Source: Bacillota bacterium
GTDB taxonomy: Bacteria; Bacillota_I; Bacilli_A; RF39; UBA660
Assembly: GCA_015059425.1 (NCBI GenBank)
Contig: SVAM01000001.1
Coordinates: 92,027 to 156,026 of the forward strand
Reading direction: 5' to 3'
DNA length: 64,000 nt
Of this stretch, positions 33,639 through 54,873 are shown piece after piece (the stretch's first letter is position 1; each line of letters starts with the position of its first letter). The notes beneath the pieces are model-generated. The model saw only the letters and a program-made list of their open reading frames with translations. It had not been told where the DNA came from and did no database searches. The position numbers and the translations under genes are program-made.

Positions 33639-34967
33639 TTATAATTTTAATTTTTTTTTAAACCCTTGTATATTATCTAAATATTCTGTACTATAATCGC
33701 CATTTTCAATTTTGTTTATTATAACTGATATTTCTTTTAAAGTTAAATTATTTGGCAATACTGGGTATGCGTGTATTTTTTTGCCATATTCATCTATAAT
33801 TATATTGGGTAGATAATCATAATCTATATTGTTTATTATATCTCCAAACCCAAACATAAAATTAGCTTTTACTTTATGGATTTGATTCCTATGTTCTTCC
33901 AGAAATAATAATGTTTCTTTTATAGTTTCTATATTATCTCGATAATCAATTAATAGATTTAAACTAGGTTTTATGCCTTGTTCATTTAATCTGTTCAATA
34001 ATTCTTTTAGCCTAATTAAATAATTTTCTGGATTTTTAGTTTTATTCATTAATCTTAAAGTTGTTAATGAGCCAGATTCAAAACCTATGCTTACTTTTAC
34101 AATTCCAGCCGCCCTTAAGTCATTTATATAATACTCCCAGTTATTATCTACATGAAGTTCGATATTCCATTTTATTTTTTTAGTTTTTAGATACTCTAAT
34201 TTTTTTTGGGTTTCAATTGAATTTACTCCGAAATTTGCTGCTAAAAGATTTGCTTTTGCGTCGGGACCATATATTTTTTCTAATAATTCTACATTTTGTA
34301 CAAAAATTTCAAATGGTACTATTTGATATTTGTCCACTACACATGAATTTAAACAAAATTCACACGAGTAAGGGCAATTTCTACTTTCCTCTACATAAGG
34401 TATATATTTATCATAGTTTGGAAATAATCTAAAATCTATTACCTCAAACTCAATTTTAGGACTTTTATAAAAATTATTTTTATTAGCATTATTTTTTTCA
34501 ATAACAGAGCATATTTGTTCATTTGAATTATTTATAATTTTTTTATACAGATTTTCTATTGTATATTCAGCATCACCTAAAATTATGTAATCTATATTTT
34601 CTGAATCTAAAAATACTTTTTCTTTTATACTTTTAACTTGCCAACCTGATAGCGCAATTTTGATTTTTGGATATTTATTTTTTATTATTTCTGCAATTTT
34701 TAGCGCTTCTAAATATTCCCATGAACAAGTACAACTTATACCTACAAATATAGTATCAAAATCTATCGATTGAATAACTTCATTCTTATTGGACGGATTT
34801 GTAATTTTAATTATTTTATTACTAATATTATTTTTAGTTAATATTGATGTTGAAATTAACAATCCTGGATTCATATAATCACAACCTTTAGTTAATGCTA
34901 TTGGCATTTCATAATTTGGATATGATAATTTCATGTATGGAGGACTAATCAAAACGACTTTACTCAT
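33639..34967 (-). CDS. B12-binding-domain radical SAM protein
   Basis: The 442-residue protein has an N-terminal Rossmann-like domain (SKVVLISPPYMKL, then FVGISCTCSWEYLEAL and IILGDAEYTIENL) of the kind found in B12-binding radical SAM enzymes, although no DxHxxG lower-ligand motif is seen. The iron-sulfur motif CPYSCEFC is at residues 198-205, and the barrel continues with VSIGFESGSLTTLRLMNK, typical of this class. Substrate unknown. It overlaps the divergent trpS by four bases (ATGA type) and is the last gene of the operon. Confidence 0.85.
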   Translation of the reverse strand: MSKVVLISPPYMKLSYPNYEMPIALTKGCDYMNPGLLISTSILTKNNISNKIIKITNPSNKNEVIQSIDFDTIFVGISCTCSWEYLEALKIAEIIKNKYPKIKIALSGWQVKSIKEKVFLDSENIDYIILGDAEYTIENLYKKIINNSNEQICSVIEKNNANKNNFYKSPKIEFEVIDFRLFPNYDKYIPYVEESRNCPYSCEFCLNSCVVDKYQIVPFEIFVQNVELLEKIYGPDAKANLLAANFGVNSIETQKKLEYLKTKKIKWNIELHVDNNWEYYINDLRAAGIVKVSIGFESGSLTTLRLMNKTKNPENYLIRLKELLNRLNEQGIKPSLNLLIDYRDNIETIKETLLFLEEHRNQIHKVKANFMFGFGDIINNIDYDYLPNIIIDEYGKKIHAYPVLPNNLTLKEISVIINKIENGDYSTEYLDNIQGFKKKLKL

Positions 34968-35974
34968 TTTACTTTCCTAGTATATTGTAATTGTTTTTCA
35001 TTCAAATCTACTAAGCCAATGGCTTTTCTTAACTCTAGCATAGATTCATCTGCTATTTCTTTTACTCTAGCAGTACCTTTAACAAGTAAATCAAATGTTA
35101 AATTTTTATCTTCTAGATAAGGCTTCATTCTTTGTCTCATTGGTTTTAATATATTATTAAGTACTACTATTAATATCATTTTAGCTTTTTCTTCTGGTAA
35201 TTTTTTTCTTAAATAGGCCGGATAAATAATAGTTTCGTATAATTCAGGATCAAATATTTTAATATATTCTAAAACAACATTTATTCCTTCTTCGCCTTTA
35301 TTTACCCATTTCATTGACATTACTTTTCTTTCAACTTCTTCGCGAGAATCTCTAACATAAATAGCATTATCTAAACTCTTACTCATTTTATTAGAACCAT
35401 CTGTTCCAACAATGTGATTGTTTTCAGTAGTTAAATAATCTGGAACTTTAAAATTAGAGCAAAACTCACTATTTAAAGTGCTAATAATTTCTTGAGTTAT
35501 TTTAATATGATCTATATTATCTTTTCCAACAGGAACTACATCTGCTTTTAAAGAAAACACATCTGCAGCCTCTAAAACTGGATATGCTACCAAACCTAAA
35601 GATACTTCGGATTGATTAGTATGTTTACTCATTTCTAACAAACTTGGAGTATTATTAACTCTATTAATTTTTACATAATTTTGAAAAATTCCATATATGT
35701 GCGATAAACTAGGTATTTGTGATTGAAGATAAAAAGTAGTCTTTTCAGGATCAATTCCCATACCTATAGCATCTATAATCATATTTAATGAATTTTCCAA
35801 AATCGTATCAATCTCTTTTTTAGTAGATTTAGTAGTTAACATATGAATATCAGAAATAATAAAATAATTATTATAATTTTCTTGTAAATCTGCAAATGTT
35901 TTAAATGCCCCAACATAATGTCCTAAATGCAGTTTCCCAGTTGGTCTTCCCCCAGACAACATAATTTTTTTCAT
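34964..35974 (-). CDS. tryptophanyl-tRNA synthetase, divergent copy
   Basis: A 336-residue class I synthetase with HLGH at 16-19 (SGGRPTGKLHLGHYVG) and KMSKS at 196-200, so it should activate an amino acid. It is clearly different in sequence from the two copies further along the operon, which are about 40 residues longer. It lies between the radical SAM and SAM-adenosyltransferase-like genes, almost without spacing. Second TrpRS copies are known as self-resistance to TrpRS inhibitors (indolmycin, chuangxinmycin). Synthetase-like proteins can also supply activated amino acids for biosynthesis. Which applies here is open. Confidence 0.88.
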   Translation of the reverse strand: MKKIMLSGGRPTGKLHLGHYVGAFKTFADLQENYNNYFIISDIHMLTTKSTKKEIDTILENSLNMIIDAIGMGIDPEKTTFYLQSQIPSLSHIYGIFQNYVKINRVNNTPSLLEMSKHTNQSEVSLGLVAYPVLEAADVFSLKADVVPVGKDNIDHIKITQEIISTLNSEFCSNFKVPDYLTTENNHIVGTDGSNKMSKSLDNAIYVRDSREEVERKVMSMKWVNKGEEGINVVLEYIKIFDPELYETIIYPAYLRKKLPEEKAKMILIVVLNNILKPMRQRMKPYLEDKNLTFDLLVKGTARVKEIADESMLELRKAIGLVDLNEKQLQYTRKVK

Positions 35975-36727
35975 TTAATTCACCTTCTTTATTTCTACTA
36001 TATCCCCATTTTTTATATTATATTTCGATGAAAAATGGTCCCTAACAATTCCTACTTCCGTGTATCCAAAAGAGCTTCCTGGATAAATTATTATTTCACC
36101 ATTTTCTTTTTCCATCATTCTTTTATTATAAACTAGTTCTAATTCTTGCCCGTTGAATTTAATAATATACCTATCTCCATTTTGAGGTTCTTCTTCAAAC
36201 TTATGGAATAATTTCAAATTACCAAAATTGTCAATGTGCATTACTGTTCCTGTTTGCATTTTAATATGTCTTATTTTATCAACTTCAAACGGATGACCTA
36301 ATTCTTTTAATTCAATACCACTTGCAACTTTACCTACAGCTGGAGCATGAACATATTTCCCCCCAAAAGGAACGAAACCTGGATCATGAAGTTCATATAA
36401 TTCTTCACACCCAAAATCTTCAATTAACCAACTAAAAGCTCCAGTATTAGTACCTTCAAAAATTATATTTTTTTTCTTAGTGCGTCCAACTATACGTTCT
36501 GTTCTAAGCTTTAAAGGATTTACAATTACACAAATTATAGTTCCTTCAGGATATATTTCTGCTATTAACTTTACTAAAAAATTAACATTTATTATACTAT
36601 ATGAATCTACTGGAACTACCGGTTCTATTTGTACATCGTAATCATTACAATTACTATAAATTGATCCTCTTATTTCTTGCCAAGCTACATCAACGCAGTC
36701 CGTTAAAACAACAACTTTTCTTTTCAT
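35975..36727 (-). CDS. SAM hydroxide adenosyltransferase-like (DUF62) protein with altered active site
   Basis: The fold of the chlorinase/fluorinase/SAM-hydrolase superfamily is suggested by VVVLTDCVDVAWQEIRGSIY at the start, GTIICVIVNPLKLRTERIV in the middle, and HIDNFGNLKL (DNFGN at 166-170) opening the C-terminal domain. Known SAM hydrolases use an Asp-Arg-His triad in VDPGVG...R and FHGRD. Here those positions read VNPLKLR (Asn70) and FGGKY (Gly122), so the usual hydroxide reaction may be lost or changed. Length (250) is normal. Its stop abuts the trpS start. Confidence 0.72.
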   Translation of the reverse strand: MKRKVVVLTDCVDVAWQEIRGSIYSNCNDYDVQIEPVVPVDSYSIINVNFLVKLIAEIYPEGTIICVIVNPLKLRTERIVGRTKKKNIIFEGTNTGAFSWLIEDFGCEELYELHDPGFVPFGGKYVHAPAVGKVASGIELKELGHPFEVDKIRHIKMQTGTVMHIDNFGNLKLFHKFEEEPQNGDRYIIKFNGQELELVYNKRMMEKENGEIIIYPGSSFGYTEVGIVRDHFSSKYNIKNGDIVEIKKVN

Positions 36728-36736
36728 AATTTTCTC

Positions 36737-38488
36737 CTATTTTTTAAATTTACAATCTTCAAGAGTTAAATTTAATTTTTCAAAAATTTGTTTTCCACCC
36801 CAACCAGTAATTAAACACTTTTCAATATCTAACTCTTTATTTATTTCAGTTAATCTTTCTAATGATTTAGCCTCTATTCCTAAATAAGATTTACATGATG
36901 GCCATTTAATAATATTTACATATACATCATTGAGTTCATATCTAATAATTTTTCTTTCTTGATATCCAGTTTCTTGCATTGCATATTCTGACATAAACTC
37001 TTTAGCATTTTTTAAACAATCAAAGTTAATTATAATACCTTTTTCGATTCTGTAATTTTCATGTTCAGTATCTAAAACTTTAAACTGTATATTTATTTTT
37101 TTGTCAGAACTTTGAATTCGAAAAATAGCATTCCCTTCAATTAATGATCTATCTTTAAAATCATAAGTATAAATATTTTGTTTAATAATTTTTTTCTTAA
37201 AACCTAATTCTTTTAATAATGCTGTTACTTTTTCTTCATCAATATCAAAGACCACTTCTTCAAATTTATCATCATTATTAATACTTAAAATTCCATTATG
37301 TTTTTCAAAAGAGTCCGAAAGAATAGATTTCATATAATTAAAATTATCTAACATGATTTTTATTTTTTCTGGTGTGCTCATTTCATCAAAGTCAATTATA
37401 TTTCCGTTAAAAGCATCCATAGCATATAAGTGATTTTCTTTAAATTCAAATTCATTTATATAAATACAAGGTTTGGCTAACTCTCTTAATATATTTGCAA
37501 AATGTGATAATTTTGCATTTTCTTTTAAAATTACTCCTTTACAAGATAACAATAATTTCAAATCATTAAAATCATATTTTTCATTTTGATATAATATACA
37601 ACCCTTTTCATTATCAGTAATATTCTTAATTTTACCTATAGAAAAACCTTTTGATATTGTCTCTCCTTTATTATAAATCTGATTTTCATCATATTTTATT
37701 TTAAAAGAAAAGTCTTTATGAATAATAGGACGGGTTTGGAAAATATATACTTTTCCTTCACTATCAATCCCCCATTCAATATCTACATCATAATTATATC
37801 TTTCTCTTATTTTATCTATAACTTCTATAAGCATTTTCACTTCAATATCTTGCTTGTCTTTATCATCATAATTTATTTCTAAATGACATATATTACCAAT
37901 ACCTTCGACTACAGTAGTTCCTAATCCTTTAGTTGATTCTATTATGTATTTTTTTTCTAAATTAATAGGATTACAACTAAACATAACACCAGCTTTTACA
38001 ACTGGAGCTACTTCTTGTATCAAAATAGCCATACTTTCTTTCTTTAAATTTATTCCATAAATCTTACTATACAATTTAGAATTTTTATTAAATAAAGAAG
38101 CATATACTTTTTTTATTGCGGCTAAAATCAATTCATCTTTATCAATATTTAAAAACGAATCATATTGACCTGCTCCACTAAAAAATATCGAATCCTCGCA
38201 AGTGGCAGAACTTCTTATAACCAATTTATTATTTCCAAATTTTTTGTGAATAGCCTCTAAAATTGTTTTCTCTAATTGAGGATTAATATGGATGTTTTCA
38301 TAATTAGAAAAATCTACTTTACCATTCTCTGTAATTACTTTATTATAAAGTGATTTTGTTAAAATAATGGTTTCAGGAACAATTACTTTTTCTTCATTCT
38401 TAAATAATTCTGATAATATTTTTAAGTTATTTCCTTTTTTACCGTAATCTTCCTTTTTGCTTTTAAAATTTTCTATAATCCCTGTCAT
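36737..38488 (-). CDS. PPDK/PEP-synthase-like dikinase fused to a CYTH-like domain
   Basis: The 583-residue protein opens with an ATP-grasp domain of the pyruvate phosphate dikinase family (VIRSSATCEDS at 90-100; DIEWGIDSEGKVYIFQTRPI at 236-255). A swivelling phosphohistidine domain follows, with H329 in AKLSHFANILRELAKPCI. The PEP/pyruvate-binding barrel is absent. Instead, residues ~409-583 resemble a CYTH/class IV cyclase fold (FEEVVFDIDEEKVTALLKEL, AIFRIQS, VNIIKWPS, LGIEAKSLE), though the ExExK start is degenerate. By analogy with rifampin phosphotransferase it may move phosphate from ATP through His to a small molecule bound by the CYTH-like part. Start ATG at 38488. Confidence 0.75.
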   Translation of the reverse strand: MTGIIENFKSKKEDYGKKGNNLKILSELFKNEEKVIVPETIILTKSLYNKVITENGKVDFSNYENIHINPQLEKTILEAIHKKFGNNKLVIRSSATCEDSIFFSGAGQYDSFLNIDKDELILAAIKKVYASLFNKNSKLYSKIYGINLKKESMAILIQEVAPVVKAGVMFSCNPINLEKKYIIESTKGLGTTVVEGIGNICHLEINYDDKDKQDIEVKMLIEVIDKIRERYNYDVDIEWGIDSEGKVYIFQTRPIIHKDFSFKIKYDENQIYNKGETISKGFSIGKIKNITDNEKGCILYQNEKYDFNDLKLLLSCKGVILKENAKLSHFANILRELAKPCIYINEFEFKENHLYAMDAFNGNIIDFDEMSTPEKIKIMLDNFNYMKSILSDSFEKHNGILSINNDDKFEEVVFDIDEEKVTALLKELGFKKKIIKQNIYTYDFKDRSLIEGNAIFRIQSSDKKINIQFKVLDTEHENYRIEKGIIINFDCLKNAKEFMSEYAMQETGYQERKIIRYELNDVYVNIIKWPSCKSYLGIEAKSLERLTEINKELDIEKCLITGWGGKQIFEKLNLTLEDCKFKK

Positions 38489-38515
38489 AAAACACCACAC
38501 TTTATCAATTTTTTA

Positions 38516-39649
38516 TTATCTAGATCTTCCACCCATATTTTCTTGCAAATCGTCATCAATATTAGTATAAACGCTATGTCTTAATTCCATATCTTCAAAA
38601 TATTCTACACCTATTGCCCTTCTTACTCTTTTTAATACTTCTGCTGCTTTTTGTCTTGCTATTTTACTACCTTCTTCTAACATGTCATATACATAATCTA
38701 TGTGTTGCTCGTAATAATGTCTTCTTTCTCTTATTGGCGCTAATGTTTCTTGCAATACATTATTTAAGAATCGTTTGATTTTTACGTCCCCTAATCCGCC
38801 TCTTCTATAATGCGCTTTTAATTCATCCAAATTTTTATACTCAGGTAAATATTTTTGGAAATGTTCGTCTGTACAAAATGCATCTAAATACTTAAATACT
38901 GCATTATCTTCTACATTTCCTGGATCTTCAATTCTTAAATGGTTTGGATCTGTAAACATCCCCATTACTTTCTTTTGAATTACCTCTGGTTCATCTGATA
39001 AATATATACAATTTTCTAAAGATTTACTCATCTTATTTTTACCATCTGTTCCTGGAAGTCTTTTACATATATCTTTATCTGGTGTTATTAAATATGGTTC
39101 TACTAATGTTTCTCCATAAATTGCATTAAATGTTCTTACTATTTCTCTATCTTGTTCAAGGATTGGTTCTTGATCTTCTCCCCCTGGCACTAGTTCTGCA
39201 TCAAATGCTGTTATATCTGCCGCCTGACTTATCGGATATGTTAAAAATCCTACTGGTACACTTTTTTCAAATCCTCTTTCTTTTATTTCTGTTTTTATAG
39301 TCGGATTCCTTTGTAATCTAGATAATGTTACTAAGTTCATATAATACATTGTAAGTTCTGATAATTCTGGTATTTGTGATTGTACAAATATAATACTTTT
39401 GTTTGGATCTATTCCTACTGCCAAATAATCAAGAGCTACCTCTATTAAATTTCTTCTTATTTTTTCTGGATCTCTTGCATTATCTGTTAATGCCTGTAAA
39501 TCTGATATAAATATATAAGGTATATATTTCCCAGAATTTTGCATCGCTACTCTATTCCTTAATGATCCTACATAATGTCCTAAATGTAATTTACCTGTTG
39601 GCCTATCTCCTGTTAATAATATTTTCTTTCTTTCATTTTGATTTTCCAT
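38516..39649 (-). CDS. trpS: tryptophanyl-tRNA synthetase, repeat copy A
   Basis: A 377-residue class I enzyme with HLGH (22-25, GDRPTGKLHLGHYVGSLRNR) and KMSKS (206-210). Its first ~364 residues are identical to copy B at 41252-42373; it ends with a Gly/Arg tail (QENMGGRSR). The ribosome site AAAGGAGAG differs from that of copy B because the repeat stops eight bases before the ATG. It lies 14 bases after the Rossmann-fold gene stop. Charging tRNA-Trp is the expected role; having two identical copies is unusual. Confidence 0.92.
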   Translation of the reverse strand: MENQNERKKILLTGDRPTGKLHLGHYVGSLRNRVAMQNSGKYIPYIFISDLQALTDNARDPEKIRRNLIEVALDYLAVGIDPNKSIIFVQSQIPELSELTMYYMNLVTLSRLQRNPTIKTEIKERGFEKSVPVGFLTYPISQAADITAFDAELVPGGEDQEPILEQDREIVRTFNAIYGETLVEPYLITPDKDICKRLPGTDGKNKMSKSLENCIYLSDEPEVIQKKVMGMFTDPNHLRIEDPGNVEDNAVFKYLDAFCTDEHFQKYLPEYKNLDELKAHYRRGGLGDVKIKRFLNNVLQETLAPIRERRHYYEQHIDYVYDMLEEGSKIARQKAAEVLKRVRRAIGVEYFEDMELRHSVYTNIDDDLQENMGGRSR

Positions 39650-39657
39650 TTTTTATC
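38556..39657. repeat. 1.1-kb direct repeat, copy 1 (trpS-A)
   Basis: Matches 41280-42381 base for base as far as I could compare by eye, at a constant offset of 2724. It covers all of trpS except the last 13 codons and stop, plus eight bases upstream of the start. Confidence 0.9.
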
Positions 39658-39663
39658 TCTCCT

Positions 39664-41262
39664 TTATTTTTTTCTACCTTTATTTTTTAAATTATTATAA
39701 TAAGCTAAATATTCAGCGATATTATAATTATTTGTTATTTTTTTGTAATCATAATAAATATCTATATTATCCTTGTTTTTCTTTAAATTAGCATCTTCAT
39801 ATATTTCAAATAATATTTTTATCCAATATTCAATATTTTCTTTTCTTAAATCTACCCAGCCAATTTTTGTCCAGTATTCAATATTTTCTTCATTAATCGT
39901 TTTATCTTCTTTTTCGTTTGGAACTAAACTATAATCTCCAATATAAAAATTGTTATTACAAGTTAAAATCGGAATTCCTAACGTTATTATTTCTTCAATT
40001 AATTCTTGATTTAACGAATTATTAACTTTTTCTACAATTTTATCAATATTTTCGTTTTTCAAATCTAATAGATAAGGATATGAAATCTTTATAAGATATA
40101 ATTCATATAATTGTTTAGATAAATTTACTCCTAAATTACCAGTTGCTATACCATTTATGAATTCAGACTCATTAAACTTATCATAAATATCATATATCAT
40201 TTCTCGACCTAAATAAGTTGGCTTTAACATAGCATTATCCATTGCAACTAAAGCATCGTTGCTAGAATTACCATATAAACACTCCATAACTTTATTAGCC
40301 ACTTCCTCTTTAGTTATACCTTCCATTTGTCCTATAGAAGTTAAAACTTCTAATTCCATCTTGGAATACACATGATTCTCACCAGCTCTAACCACTGGAA
40401 AATGTAGATATTCACTTGTTATATTATTATTATATTTAATCTTATCCCCTGATACTAGTTCATATGGTTTAGGTGATTTTCTCTTATATAAAAGACCCTT
40501 ATCAGTTTCAATCGGTTCATCTAATACTGAATCATAACCAACGAATGTTCCAGGAATAATCAAAGATATATTCATACCTTTAGTATGTTGTAAATTCCAT
40601 AATAATTGATGTAAAACACCTGACGCCGCAATTTTCCCCATCAACGCACTGGATAAATTTATTTTGGGATTATCGCCATGAGTATAAGGCATATTAACTC
40701 CCATTCCTCCAAGTCCTGTAGTTGAGACTTTAACATACTTCTTTACATCATATGTCTCTATTCCATATTTCAAACTATATACAAAATTAATTATTTTAGT
40801 TGAATAATCATCAACCATTAATTTTGTTGCACATTCTATAGGGTTATTAGATAACCTTTTTAAATTATCTTCTGGATTATACGAATTACCTAAAACAGTC
40901 GCTGTATTTATAGCATCTATAATCAATTCTGGTTTGTATTTTTTTATTAAAGTAGCTATTGTTGATTTTTCTAAAGTTTTGTTAGTAGTTTCTTTGTAAA
41001 AATATTCTATTATTTCATCGCAACTTTCGAAAAGTTCTTTATTATTTATATCTTTTAATTTATATGGCATAAAAACATTTCCATAGCTACTTATAAACTT
41101 TATTTCTGGATATAATGCCGAATAACTTTTACATACCTCAATACTTTCTTTTTCGGTTAAATTATGTATAATTACTTTTTTTGGTTGCTTATGTAATATT
41201 TGATTTAATATAGCTTTACCTATTTGCCCAGTACCAAGTATTAAAATATTGTTATAGTTCAT
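39664..41262 (-). CDS. Rossmann-fold NAD(P)-binding protein between the trpS copies
   Basis: The 532-residue protein starts with a dinucleotide-binding motif, ILILGTGQIGKAI (GxGxxG at 10-15). A dehydrogenase/epimerase-like core follows, with STTGLGGMGVNMPYTHGD near residues 165-185 and LIIPGTFVGYDSV further on. No YxxxK of classical short-chain dehydrogenases was found. A long helical C-terminal half is unassigned. I do not know its substrate. The ATG at 41262 lies inside the end of trpS copy B, with a GGGGGTGG ribosome site. An upstream in-frame start (41283) is less likely. Confidence 0.72.
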   Translation of the reverse strand: MNYNNILILGTGQIGKAILNQILHKQPKKVIIHNLTEKESIEVCKSYSALYPEIKFISSYGNVFMPYKLKDINNKELFESCDEIIEYFYKETTNKTLEKSTIATLIKKYKPELIIDAINTATVLGNSYNPEDNLKRLSNNPIECATKLMVDDYSTKIINFVYSLKYGIETYDVKKYVKVSTTGLGGMGVNMPYTHGDNPKINLSSALMGKIAASGVLHQLLWNLQHTKGMNISLIIPGTFVGYDSVLDEPIETDKGLLYKRKSPKPYELVSGDKIKYNNNITSEYLHFPVVRAGENHVYSKMELEVLTSIGQMEGITKEEVANKVMECLYGNSSNDALVAMDNAMLKPTYLGREMIYDIYDKFNESEFINGIATGNLGVNLSKQLYELYLIKISYPYLLDLKNENIDKIVEKVNNSLNQELIEEIITLGIPILTCNNNFYIGDYSLVPNEKEDKTINEENIEYWTKIGWVDLRKENIEYWIKILFEIYEDANLKKNKDNIDIYYDYKKITNNYNIAEYLAYYNNLKNKGRKK

Positions 41263-42373
41263 TATTATTTCCACCCCCTTCAATATTAGTATAAACGCTA
41301 TGTCTTAATTCCATATCTTCAAAATATTCTACACCTATTGCCCTTCTTACTCTTTTTAATACTTCTGCTGCTTTTTGTCTTGCTATTTTACTACCTTCTT
41401 CTAACATGTCATATACATAATCTATGTGTTGCTCGTAATAATGTCTTCTTTCTCTTATTGGCGCTAATGTTTCTTGCAATACATTATTTAAGAATCGTTT
41501 GATTTTTACGTCCCCTAATCCGCCTCTTCTATAATGCGCTTTTAATTCATCCAAATTTTTATACTCAGGTAAATATTTTTGGAAATGTTCGTCTGTACAA
41601 AATGCATCTAAATACTTAAATACTGCATTATCTTCTACATTTCCTGGATCTTCAATTCTTAAATGGTTTGGATCTGTAAACATCCCCATTACTTTCTTTT
41701 GAATTACCTCTGGTTCATCTGATAAATATATACAATTTTCTAAAGATTTACTCATCTTATTTTTACCATCTGTTCCTGGAAGTCTTTTACATATATCTTT
41801 ATCTGGTGTTATTAAATATGGTTCTACTAATGTTTCTCCATAAATTGCATTAAATGTTCTTACTATTTCTCTATCTTGTTCAAGGATTGGTTCTTGATCT
41901 TCTCCCCCTGGCACTAGTTCTGCATCAAATGCTGTTATATCTGCCGCCTGACTTATCGGATATGTTAAAAATCCTACTGGTACACTTTTTTCAAATCCTC
42001 TTTCTTTTATTTCTGTTTTTATAGTCGGATTCCTTTGTAATCTAGATAATGTTACTAAGTTCATATAATACATTGTAAGTTCTGATAATTCTGGTATTTG
42101 TGATTGTACAAATATAATACTTTTGTTTGGATCTATTCCTACTGCCAAATAATCAAGAGCTACCTCTATTAAATTTCTTCTTATTTTTTCTGGATCTCTT
42201 GCATTATCTGTTAATGCCTGTAAATCTGATATAAATATATAAGGTATATATTTCCCAGAATTTTGCATCGCTACTCTATTCCTTAATGATCCTACATAAT
42301 GTCCTAAATGTAATTTACCTGTTGGCCTATCTCCTGTTAATAATATTTTCTTTCTTTCATTTTGATTTTCCAT
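41252..42373 (-). CDS. trpS: tryptophanyl-tRNA synthetase, repeat copy B
   Basis: Identical to copy A up to YTNI near residue 364, then ending with a different nine-residue tail (EGGGNNNEL) created where the repeat joins the next gene's ribosome site. HLGH and KMSKS motifs are intact, so the enzyme should be active. It is the first gene of the operon, 36 bases after the leader terminator. Its end overlaps the Rossmann-fold gene start by 11 bases. Confidence 0.92.
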   Translation of the reverse strand: MENQNERKKILLTGDRPTGKLHLGHYVGSLRNRVAMQNSGKYIPYIFISDLQALTDNARDPEKIRRNLIEVALDYLAVGIDPNKSIIFVQSQIPELSELTMYYMNLVTLSRLQRNPTIKTEIKERGFEKSVPVGFLTYPISQAADITAFDAELVPGGEDQEPILEQDREIVRTFNAIYGETLVEPYLITPDKDICKRLPGTDGKNKMSKSLENCIYLSDEPEVIQKKVMGMFTDPNHLRIEDPGNVEDNAVFKYLDAFCTDEHFQKYLPEYKNLDELKAHYRRGGLGDVKIKRFLNNVLQETLAPIRERRHYYEQHIDYVYDMLEEGSKIARQKAAEVLKRVRRAIGVEYFEDMELRHSVYTNIEGGGNNNEL

Positions 42374-42381
42374 TTTTTATC
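41280..42381. repeat. 1.1-kb direct repeat, copy 2 (trpS-B)
   Basis: Partner of 38556-39657, same orientation. Recombination between the two would remove a 2724-bp unit (one trpS plus the Rossmann-fold gene) and leave a complete trpS. Confidence 0.9.
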
Positions 42382-42408: not shown

Positions 42409-42450
42409 AAAAAATAGCGCATAAAGCCACAAAATGTTTTATAACGCTAT
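42409..42450 (-). terminator. leader terminator (attenuator) upstream of trpS-B
   Basis: On the minus strand ATAGCG...CGCTAT, extended by a second A-T stem above one bulge (ATAAA/TTTAT), followed by six T. It lies between the promoter and trpS-B, so full-length transcripts must read through it. The last codons and stop of the leader ORF form its 5' arm. Confidence 0.72.
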
Positions 42451-42546
42451 CTTTACACATGACATAAAGAATAAAATATTTTTTATTGCTAATTTTATAT
42501 TCATAAATGTTTTATAAATAATATGGTTTTTGCATAATTTAAACAT
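42439..42546 (-). CDS. 35-residue leader ORF upstream of trpS-B
   Basis: ATG at 42546 with a GAGGGG ribosome site; product MFKLCKNHIIYKTFMNIKLA then a hydrophobic end closing VKIAL. It contains no Trp codon, so it is not a classical tryptophan-sensing leader peptide. Its stop codon lies within the 5' arm of the attenuator, so translation to the end would block the hairpin. Also readable as a small membrane peptide. Confidence 0.5.
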   Translation of the reverse strand: MFKLCKNHIIYKTFMNIKLAIKNILFFMSCVKIAL

Positions 42547-42577
42547 TTTATCCCCTCTTTTTTAATAAATTTATAAT

Positions 42578-42606
42578 AATATACTATTATTAAATAAAAA
42601 TGTCAA
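42578..42606 (-). promoter_or_regulatory. promoter of the trpS operon
   Basis: Consensus TTGACA (42606-42601), 17-base spacer, TATATT (42583-42578). The 5' leader is roughly 200 bases. No T-box consensus (AGGGTGG-ACCGCG) is present in it. Confidence 0.75.
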
Positions 42607-45235: not shown

Positions 45236-46213
45236 TTATCTATCTATTTCTTCAATTTTTTTATTCAAAATATCAATATAATCTTGTTCAGCAGTTGTTA
45301 AATGCGTTTGCATATATTTATCAAATTCTTCATGTGCTTTTTTCAATGCTTGTTCATGAGATATTTTACCACTATTTTTTAAAATGTCTTTTCTTGTCAT
45401 TTTTAAGAAAGAATCTAATTCATCTATCCAATCTTGCATTGTCATTGGATGTCTATCTAAAGCATTAATTTCTGCAATATCCAAATATGCAGATACCATT
45501 CTATTTAAAACATTTAATTCTTCTTCCGTTAAATAGTTTTTAGCTATTTCAGTTTCACTTTTAGTAGGATAGTCTCCCTTAAAATTGGTAAGTCCTAAAT
45601 AATCTTTTTTTGAATCAACTCTATTGAAAATTACTTCGGCAGCGGTATTACCATGTGTTGCATAATGCATTTTATTTTGAACTGTCTTAAAGAAATCTAT
45701 TGATAATTTATCTTTAGGGTTATAATCTATACTTGTTGCATATATATCTAAAACTTTTCTCCAAAATACTTTCTCACTAGATCTAATATCACGAATTCTA
45801 GCAAGTAATTCTTCAAAATATGGGCTTGTACCATCATTCTTTAATCTTTCATCATTTAATACAAATCCTTTTATCATATATTCTTTTAAAACTTTAGTTG
45901 CCCATATTCTAAAATCAGTTGCTTTCTTAGAATTAATTCTATATCCAACCGCAATTATAGCATCTAAATTATAGTGTAAAACATTATAGTTTTTACCATC
46001 ACTGGCAGTTGTTAAGAATTTCTTAACAACTGAATTTTTCTGTAATTCTCCTTCATCAAATATATTTTTTAAATGTATAGAAATATTATTTTTAGTCGTA
46101 TCGTAAAGATTAGCCATTACATCTTGGTTCATCCATATATCTTCATTTTGGATATTAACATCTACTTTTATATTACCATCTTTTGATACATATATAATCA
46201 TGTTATTTTTCAT
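45236..46213 (-). CDS. RhuM family protein
   Basis: The 325-residue protein matches the RhuM ('virulence protein') family: IWMNQDVMANLYDTTKNNIS then HLKNIFDEGEL, NYNVLHYNLDAIIAVGYRIN and FRIWATKVLKEYMIKGF in the first 125 residues, and a helical C-terminal region. The family occurs in accessory DNA, often with restriction or toxin-antitoxin genes, and its function is unknown. It splits the parE-parC pair. It has its own promoter with an embedded palindrome, suggesting a dedicated repressor. Confidence 0.87.
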   Translation of the reverse strand: MKNNMIIYVSKDGNIKVDVNIQNEDIWMNQDVMANLYDTTKNNISIHLKNIFDEGELQKNSVVKKFLTTASDGKNYNVLHYNLDAIIAVGYRINSKKATDFRIWATKVLKEYMIKGFVLNDERLKNDGTSPYFEELLARIRDIRSSEKVFWRKVLDIYATSIDYNPKDKLSIDFFKTVQNKMHYATHGNTAAEVIFNRVDSKKDYLGLTNFKGDYPTKSETEIAKNYLTEEELNVLNRMVSAYLDIAEINALDRHPMTMQDWIDELDSFLKMTRKDILKNSGKISHEQALKKAHEEFDKYMQTHLTTAEQDYIDILNKKIEEIDR

Positions 46214-53983: not shown

Positions 53984-54020
53984 AAAAAAACTAAATAAAT
54001 TTTTTAGTACTTTATTTAGT
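53984..54020 (-). terminator. terminator of the BRO-type gene
   Basis: Ten-base-pair stem ACTAAATAAA/TTTATTTAGT followed by seven T on the minus strand; overlaps the stop at 54016. Confidence 0.75.
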
Positions 54021-54873
54021 TCTTATTATTTAATTGCTTATTCGTATCAACATATCTTCCACCAATAGTATTCTCACTAGTTATAGCACTTCTTCCTGTT
54101 TCCTTCTCATAAGATTCTCTTGCTATTTTAGATACTTTCCCACCTCTTTTGGCAACTTTTAAATTATCTTTTAAACCTTGAGGTCGTTCTTGTTTTGCTA
54201 TATCTCTTGCAGTTACTTCTCCTAAATCAGTAAGTATTACTTCGATATCTGTCATATTATCTCTTAAAGATTCTTTTCTAATGCCTTTAAAATCTTTATA
54301 TTCATTTGCCTTCATACCTGACCAAGCCTTATAAATCTCATTAGTTAATAATCCATATTCATAATTTTCAGTAATACCATTTTCTTTCCAAACATCAGTT
54401 AATTTTTTGCGATTAAGAATTCCTTTTAATCTTACTTCAATCCAACTATCCGAATAACCTTTCTTACGATAATAATCAATTGCTCTGTCAATAGCTTTTT
54501 CTGGATCAAATACTTCATCAATTCTCTCTTTCCCTAAAGACGCTAACCACATTTTAAATGGTTCTGCTTTAGGACTTGGAACAGATTCAATAAGTCTAAA
54601 TATACCTTCAGTATCTAATGCATCTCTTAATCTTATCTTGCCATCTGATGCAACCATTTTCAACTGACTACATTTTGTAGTCAGTTCACTTCCCTCTTTT
54701 TTTAATCTTGCTTTTAGTACACTCCAATATTTCCTAGGCTCTTTACTATCTGTTAATGCACTAATAACATCAACTACACTAAAATAATAATCTTCTTTTT
54801 CTTTATCCCAAATACTTCTTATTTCGCTGCCTTCAAATAAATTTGTAATAGTATCTAATTTATTTTCTTTCAA
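54016..54873 (-). CDS. BRO family phage antirepressor-like protein
   Basis: The 285-residue protein has an N-terminal BRO-N domain (residues ~12-115: IRSIWDKEKEDYYFSVVDVI, then KYWSVLKARLKKEG, TEGIFRLIESVPSPKAEPFK and MWLASLGKERIDE), the pattern of phage antirepressors and DinD-like proteins. A helical region with YRKKGYSDSWIEVRLKGI and a basic C-terminus follow. There are no phage genes around it, so it is probably a domesticated or solitary accessory gene. It sits behind an unusually long, structured leader. Confidence 0.85.
   Translation of the reverse strand: MKENKLDTITNLFEGSEIRSIWDKEKEDYYFSVVDVISALTDSKEPRKYWSVLKARLKKEGSELTTKCSQLKMVASDGKIRLRDALDTEGIFRLIESVPSPKAEPFKMWLASLGKERIDEVFDPEKAIDRAIDYYRKKGYSDSWIEVRLKGILNRKKLTDVWKENGITENYEYGLLTNEIYKAWSGMKANEYKDFKGIRKESLRDNMTDIEVILTDLGEVTARDIAKQERPQGLKDNLKVAKRGGKVSKIARESYEKETGRSAITSENTIGGRYVDTNKQLNNKN

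Follow-up and report, generated by a model that had tools for sequence, protein, structure and literature searches.

A PPDK-type dikinase half joined to a CYTH domain in a mobile six-gene cluster encoding two tryptophanyl-tRNA synthetases

The locus and its fusion protein

A stretch of 64,000 nucleotides from the genome of a Bacillota bacterium (the window) carries a gene encoding a PPDK-type ATP-grasp domain, a phosphohistidine domain, and a CYTH domain in one polypeptide. The gene lies in a cluster on the minus strand, the features of which are as follows.

42439..42546, minus strand: possible 35-codon leader ORF with no Trp codon, downstream of a sigma-70-like promoter
42411..42452, minus strand: terminator-like hairpin and T run, between the leader ORF and trpS copy A
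41252..42373, minus strand: TrpRS1 copy A, a window-specific second copy duplicating copy B
39664..41262, minus strand: SDR-like NAD(P)-binding oxidoreductase (NAD539), 532 aa, first protein gene of the conserved core
38516..39649, minus strand: TrpRS1 copy B, core gene, with VPVG changed to VPGG in the Trp pocket
36737..38488, minus strand: PPDK_N-phosphohistidine-CYTH fusion protein, 583 aa, ATG at 38488
37676..38443, minus strand: ATP-grasp (PPDK_N) domain of the fusion, residues about 20-275
37385..37654, minus strand: swivelling His (PEP-utilizers) domain of the fusion, residues about 283-372
36776..37273, minus strand: CYTH domain of the fusion, residues about 410-575, tunnel motifs altered
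35975..36727, minus strand: protein of the SAM hydroxide adenosyltransferase/halogenase fold, retaining the SAM-binding motif but not the D-R-H hydrolase triad
34964..35974, minus strand: TrpRS2, HIGH and KMSKS kept, anticodon- and G73-reading residues lost
33639..34967, minus strand: B12-binding radical SAM protein, last cluster gene

The longest open reading frame of the fusion gene starts with a GTG at 38500 and comprises 587 codons, and the in-frame ATG at 38488 agrees with the starts of the homologues. The original prediction, made from the sequence of this one protein, held that the ATP-binding half and the swivelling domain of the dikinase family are kept and that the PEP/pyruvate barrel is missing, and profile searches bear this out. 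The PPDK_N domain is matched with an E-value of 3.9e-43, and K21/K22, R96, E242, Q255, and R257 are invariant in all four homologues; the roles of K22, R96, E242, Q255, and R257 are presumed to be those of the corresponding residues in Clostridium symbiosum PPDK. The catalytic histidine, predicted as H329, is His333 in the numbering of the 587-aa frame (codon at 37502-37504) and is likewise invariant (4/4). The swivelling domain of the window protein scores 18.2 bits, below the 23.1-bit cut-off for PEP-utilizers, and that of the orthologue L155 scores 29.4 bits, above it. The fusion thus combines PPDK_N with its catalytic residues and a swivelling domain with its catalytic His, as in dikinases of the PPDK/PEP-synthase type; no PEP/pyruvate TIM barrel family was matched in these searches, so that the protein is not a PEP synthase or PPDK proper, and the CYTH domain occupies the place of the barrel.

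The N-terminus resembles PEP synthase, as would be expected of a decayed fragment of an ordinary PEP synthase joined by chance to a CYTH gene. However, full-length orthologues of the fusion, 42-47% identical to the window protein, are encoded in three other genomes, which excludes chance as the source of the architecture. These orthologues belong to unrelated bacteria and retain both the catalytic residues and the neighboring genes, which refutes decay to the point that we give it almost no weight. The PPDK_N-phosphohistidine-CYTH architecture is confirmed. No report of a fusion between a dikinase and a CYTH domain was found in the literature searched, nor any description of this acceptor fold joined to such a phosphotransfer engine. 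Scans of genome and viral collections with peptide patterns of the window fusion returned no match, and plasmid matches to the fusion turned out to be ordinary PEP synthases.

The CYTH domain and related dikinases

The Pfam CYTH profile does not match the window protein directly, and indirect profile evidence was therefore needed. The CYTH region matches stand-alone proteins of the same bacterial family with E-values of 3e-9 to 6e-6 (best 2.8e-9 and 4.5e-9) and a Rhodococcus protein annotated as CYTH with an E-value of 0.01; three of the same-family proteins (L030, L031, and L033) and the Rhodococcus protein themselves exceed the Pfam CYTH cut-off. Alignment by hhalign of the region with CYTH proteins passing the Pfam cut-off gave a probability of 98.8% and an E-value of 4.7e-17 over 167 columns. 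Two further weak CYTH matches (L034 and L035) proved to be unrelated ORFs. An AlphaFold model of the fusion, built from a two-sequence input only, is poor (pLDDT 42.9) and does not reveal the mutual orientation of the domains; ranks 1-21 of a Foldseek search with this model are nevertheless all CYTH or triphosphate-tunnel structures, which is weak evidence taken alone, and a non-CYTH fold did not emerge. Profile and structural evidence together place the domain in the CYTH superfamily, and the assignment, first proposed from weak sequence cues, stands.

The C-terminal fold is accordingly that of CYTH proteins and triphosphate tunnel metalloenzymes, such as class IV adenylate cyclase and thiamine triphosphatase, although in the fusion the domain sits behind a dikinase and its tunnel motifs are altered. 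Relative to ordinary CYTH proteins, ExExK is changed to KxExV, RxR to RxQ, and ExE near the WP motif to GxE. These changes are identical across the three aligned cluster fusions, which implies that the tunnel is remodelled and not decaying. Since CYTH proteins are often class IV cyclases or triphosphatases, and the structural matches include both, the CYTH domain might itself be catalytic, with the PPDK half regulatory or ATP-regenerating. However, the ExExK motif and the acidic and basic tunnel residues required of a catalytic CYTH domain are absent, replaced in the same way in the aligned homologues, and we consider this possibility improbable. The altered tunnel looks like a new ligand site rather than the product of decay, a cyclase, or a triphosphatase. 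Of the original interpretation, the architecture and the retention of catalytic residues hold, as does the comparison with rifampin phosphotransferase (RPH); binding of triphosphate or of a phosphorylated acceptor by the domain, as in CYTH proteins, cannot be assumed because the tunnel motifs have changed.

The analogy to RPH now extends to other small-molecule dikinases. RPH and HpeHI are small-molecule dikinases built from ATP-grasp and swivelling domains (PMC4844700, PMC12167813). As in RPH, the fusion comprises a PPDK-type ATP-grasp domain, a swivelling phosphohistidine domain, and a separate acceptor domain, without a PEP barrel; unlike RPH, which has about 865 residues and a rifampin-binding domain, its acceptor domain is a C-terminal CYTH domain, and the NCBIfam RPH model scores only 82 bits against a cut-off of 999, so that it is not a rifampin phosphotransferase by that model. 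HpeHI, CreHI, and PpsAB have recruited the same two phosphotransfer domains for small molecules and are AMP-forming, whereas, in contrast to the fusion, they are composed of two proteins, carry an RPH-like acceptor domain, and have a catabolic role (PMC12167813). The prodigiosin ligases PigC and RedH similarly use the PPDK-type ATP-binding half in biosynthesis, although they are condensing enzymes without a CYTH domain; their models score 110 and 96 bits on the fusion, far under the respective cut-offs of 1300 and 1350 bits. By these likenesses, the fusion may be an AMP-forming small-molecule dikinase, in which the ATP-grasp domain would transfer phosphate from ATP to His333 and the swivelling domain would deliver it to an acceptor held in the C-terminal CYTH-derived barrel.

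Content, hosts, and mobility of the cluster

The original prediction considered the protein alone; the fusion is in fact part of a conserved mobile cluster of six genes, which provides the best clue to its role. A motif scan based on the 532-aa oxidoreductase revealed six genes whose content and order are common to the window, L166, L167, and L168: SDR-like oxidoreductase, TrpRS1, dikinase-CYTH, SAM-hydrolase/halogenase-fold protein, TrpRS2, and B12-radical-SAM protein. The hosts are the Bacilli metagenome-assembled genome (MAG) of the window, Lachnospiraceae bacterium 10-1 (L166), and two goat-colon MAGs labelled Alphaproteobacteria (L167 and L168), i.e., three lineages, in a thin sample of four genomes of which three are MAGs. 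In addition to the fusion, identity to the window across the clusters is 72-73% for the SAM-hydrolase-like protein, 52-59% for the radical SAM protein, and 53-71% for TrpRS2.

Profile searches assigned NAD539 to no specific family, and its relatives were found by the motif scan; its model (pLDDT 87.2) weakly resembles extended short-chain dehydrogenases and thioester reductase domains. In the SAM-hydrolase-like protein IDxxFGN is retained, and by sequence comparison D and H of the D68-R75-H127 triad are replaced by N and G, respectively.

In the window, two trpS segments of 1102 bp (41280-42381 and 38556-39657) are 100% identical and flank the oxidoreductase gene, and the encoded copies differ only in their C-terminal tails. 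The repeat could be a recent duplication, a gene conversion, or an assembly artefact, and the argument for the core cluster is independent of copy A. Upstream of copy A, the interval 42411-42606 holds the promoter-like sequence, the leader ORF, and the terminator-like hairpin (MFE -14.1 and z -2.27 for the 71-nt region), possibly an attenuation control. A search of the cluster starts returned neither a T-box nor any other Rfam regulator.

The mobility of the cluster follows from four observations. The two alphaproteobacterial genomes share it as a 7.9-kb segment of 99.1% identity, on either side of which their sequences are unrelated; phage genes adjoin it in L166 (visible in the overlapping L175) and in L168; its GC content in L166 is 32.6% versus 51.4% for the flank; and it is missing from nearly all relatives searched. 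The cluster is thus a rare mobile package common to unrelated gut bacteria, sometimes located in prophages, and as a whole it may be new. The adjoining phage genes, together with a tRNA-Trp carried along in some hosts, also accord with a phage- or host-conflict module, in which TrpRS1 and tRNA-Trp would shield Trp decoding from an attack on tRNA-Trp or TrpRS and the other genes would modify tRNA or nucleotides, with no diffusible compound. However, no known defence or toxin family was recognized, as PADLOC returned only a weak match to a radical-SAM entry and PHROGs assigned no defence function; neither IMG/VR, to which the cluster was also aligned, nor phage records gave a match; and the window cluster is surrounded by housekeeping genes. 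The defence reading is a rival that we consider unlikely. RhuM-family and Bro-N-domain proteins are encoded among the housekeeping genes of the window at 45236-46213 and 54016-54873.

Two tryptophanyl-tRNA synthetases and a candidate role

The two synthetases of the cluster have diverged in different ways. TrpRS1 keeps normal tRNA-reading features, and its VPVG motif is changed to VPGG in all three cluster types, whereas each of the seven non-cluster enzymes of its class used for comparison has VPVG; the oxidoreductase-linked TrpRS of L047 and L169 has VPAG. The valine of this motif is taken to correspond to Escherichia coli V146, which lines the Trp pocket and the replacement of which presumably admits substituted tryptophans; a V146G-type change could also reflect a wider substrate range instead of resistance. 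TrpRS1 of the window is 76% identical to the Lachnospiraceae cluster copy versus 69-71% to enzymes of genus-mates, which disfavors vertical inheritance and favors, although it does not prove, origin with the cluster. TrpRS2 keeps HIGH and KMSKS, whereas in all three clusters aligned the T225-S227 loop is deleted and the G271/K274 region and E155 are lost. In E. coli TrpRS these elements read the anticodon and G73 (PMC12135181). Judged from this alignment, TrpRS2 is probably a tRNA-independent adenylating enzyme.

The L166-L168 hosts retain their own trpS besides the cluster. All three TrpRS hits in the window genome belong to the cluster, in an assembly that is 95.7% complete and may thus lack a host gene, and the host may therefore depend on TrpRS1. 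From these two observations, TrpRS1 probably supplies charged tRNA to ordinary translation. The first gene of the cluster in L167 and L168 is a tRNA-Trp, which has its own promoter-like sequence upstream and is separated from the first protein gene by about 20 bases; it is 94% identical to a Lachnospiraceae tRNA-Trp versus 89% to the host's own; no tRNA-Trp is present in the window and L166 clusters. The joint movement of a synthetase and a tRNA, both of Firmicute type, into Proteobacteria is consistent with TrpRS1 charging tRNA for use in translation. Genus-mates of the window genome (L008-L017) each carry one of two very different kinds of TrpRS, with identities of about 70% or about 33%, which suggests that this essential enzyme has been repeatedly replaced in the genus. 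TrpRS genes on staphylococcal and other plasmids lie in ordinary contexts, not in the six-gene cluster.

The presence of two TrpRS, and in some hosts a tRNA-Trp, in one package implies that its product is probably a compound aimed at tryptophan charging. At about an even chance, the fusion is a dikinase that phosphorylates a small molecule held by its CYTH-derived acceptor domain, and serves a mobile pathway to a tryptophan-related antimetabolite, against which TrpRS1 confers immunity. The five biosynthetic enzymes would be dikinase-CYTH, NAD539, the protein of SAM-cleaving fold, TrpRS2 (blind to tRNA), and the B12-radical-SAM protein; the product would most likely inhibit tryptophanyl-tRNA synthetase; TrpRS1, the Trp pocket of which is altered, would be the resistant replacement enzyme; and in the alphaproteobacterial hosts the cassette would supply the matching Firmicute-type tRNA-Trp. 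The analysis establishes the domain architecture, the conserved catalytic residues, the conservation of the cluster, its movement among hosts, and the altered residues of the two synthetases, whereas the acceptor, the product, and the immunity role are inferred. Counting against the scheme are the lack of Trp codons in the possible leader peptide, the failure to recognize a transporter or regulator among the six core genes, the alternative meaning of the TrpRS1 pocket change, the thin sampling, and the poor model of the fusion.

Charged tRNA might instead serve as a building block, with TrpRS1 and tRNA-Trp feeding a biosynthetic transferase and dikinase-CYTH phosphorylating an intermediate. 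Natural product pathways dependent on aminoacyl-tRNA are known (PMC12945691), and tRNA-Trp heads the cluster in L167 and L168; however, no aminoacyl-tRNA transferase family (GNAT/FemX, PEARL, or cyclodipeptide synthase) was recognized in the cluster, the window and L166 clusters have no tRNA, and in the window genome, where no TrpRS was found outside the cluster, translation probably relies on TrpRS1. This alternative appears doubtful. Still less credence is given to the idea that the cassette makes a modified tryptophan, charged by its own TrpRS1 and tRNA-Trp after dikinase-CYTH has supplied a phosphorylated intermediate; the enlarged TrpRS1 pocket would then accept the analogue, and the cluster would bring everything needed for a non-standard amino acid in one mobile unit.

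The antimetabolite reading resembles the self-resistance of indolmycin type, in which an extra TrpRS variant lies near biosynthetic-looking genes, whereas here the other gene content is unrelated, two TrpRS types occur, and tRNA-Trp is present. The indolmycin and chuangxinmycin clusters for TrpRS inhibitors presumably share only general enzyme types with the cassette. The enzyme described here belongs to a mobile gut cassette that encodes two tryptophanyl-tRNA synthetases and, in part of its hosts, a tRNA-Trp acquired by transfer. If a TrpRS inhibitor is made, the cassette would represent an unknown class of natural antibiotic from gut bacteria with immunity built in, and a case of a resistance synthetase crossing phyla along with its own tRNA.

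Other loci of the NAD539 family also adjoin TrpRS genes, two of different types in L169 and one in L053. In Clostridia (L169:2663-10536), the NAD539-family gene is accompanied by a sodium symporter, a Mem_trans transporter, a PLP decarboxylase, and the two TrpRS; one of these has a signal-like N-terminus and seems to be of eukaryotic type. In Streptomyces sp. NRRL F-5135 (L053:92-7993), a NAD539 homologue lies with a methyltransferase, an adenylate-forming enzyme, an aminotransferase, and a divergent TrpRS, likely a natural product cluster in which that TrpRS is a possible self-resistance enzyme. In L146 (251-7907), a NAD539 homologue precedes genes for alanine-racemase-like, adenylate-forming, and radical SAM proteins, probably another biosynthetic cluster. 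The company of adenylate-forming enzymes in L053 and L146, or of two TrpRS in L169, suggests that the substrate of NAD539 may be an activated carboxylate.
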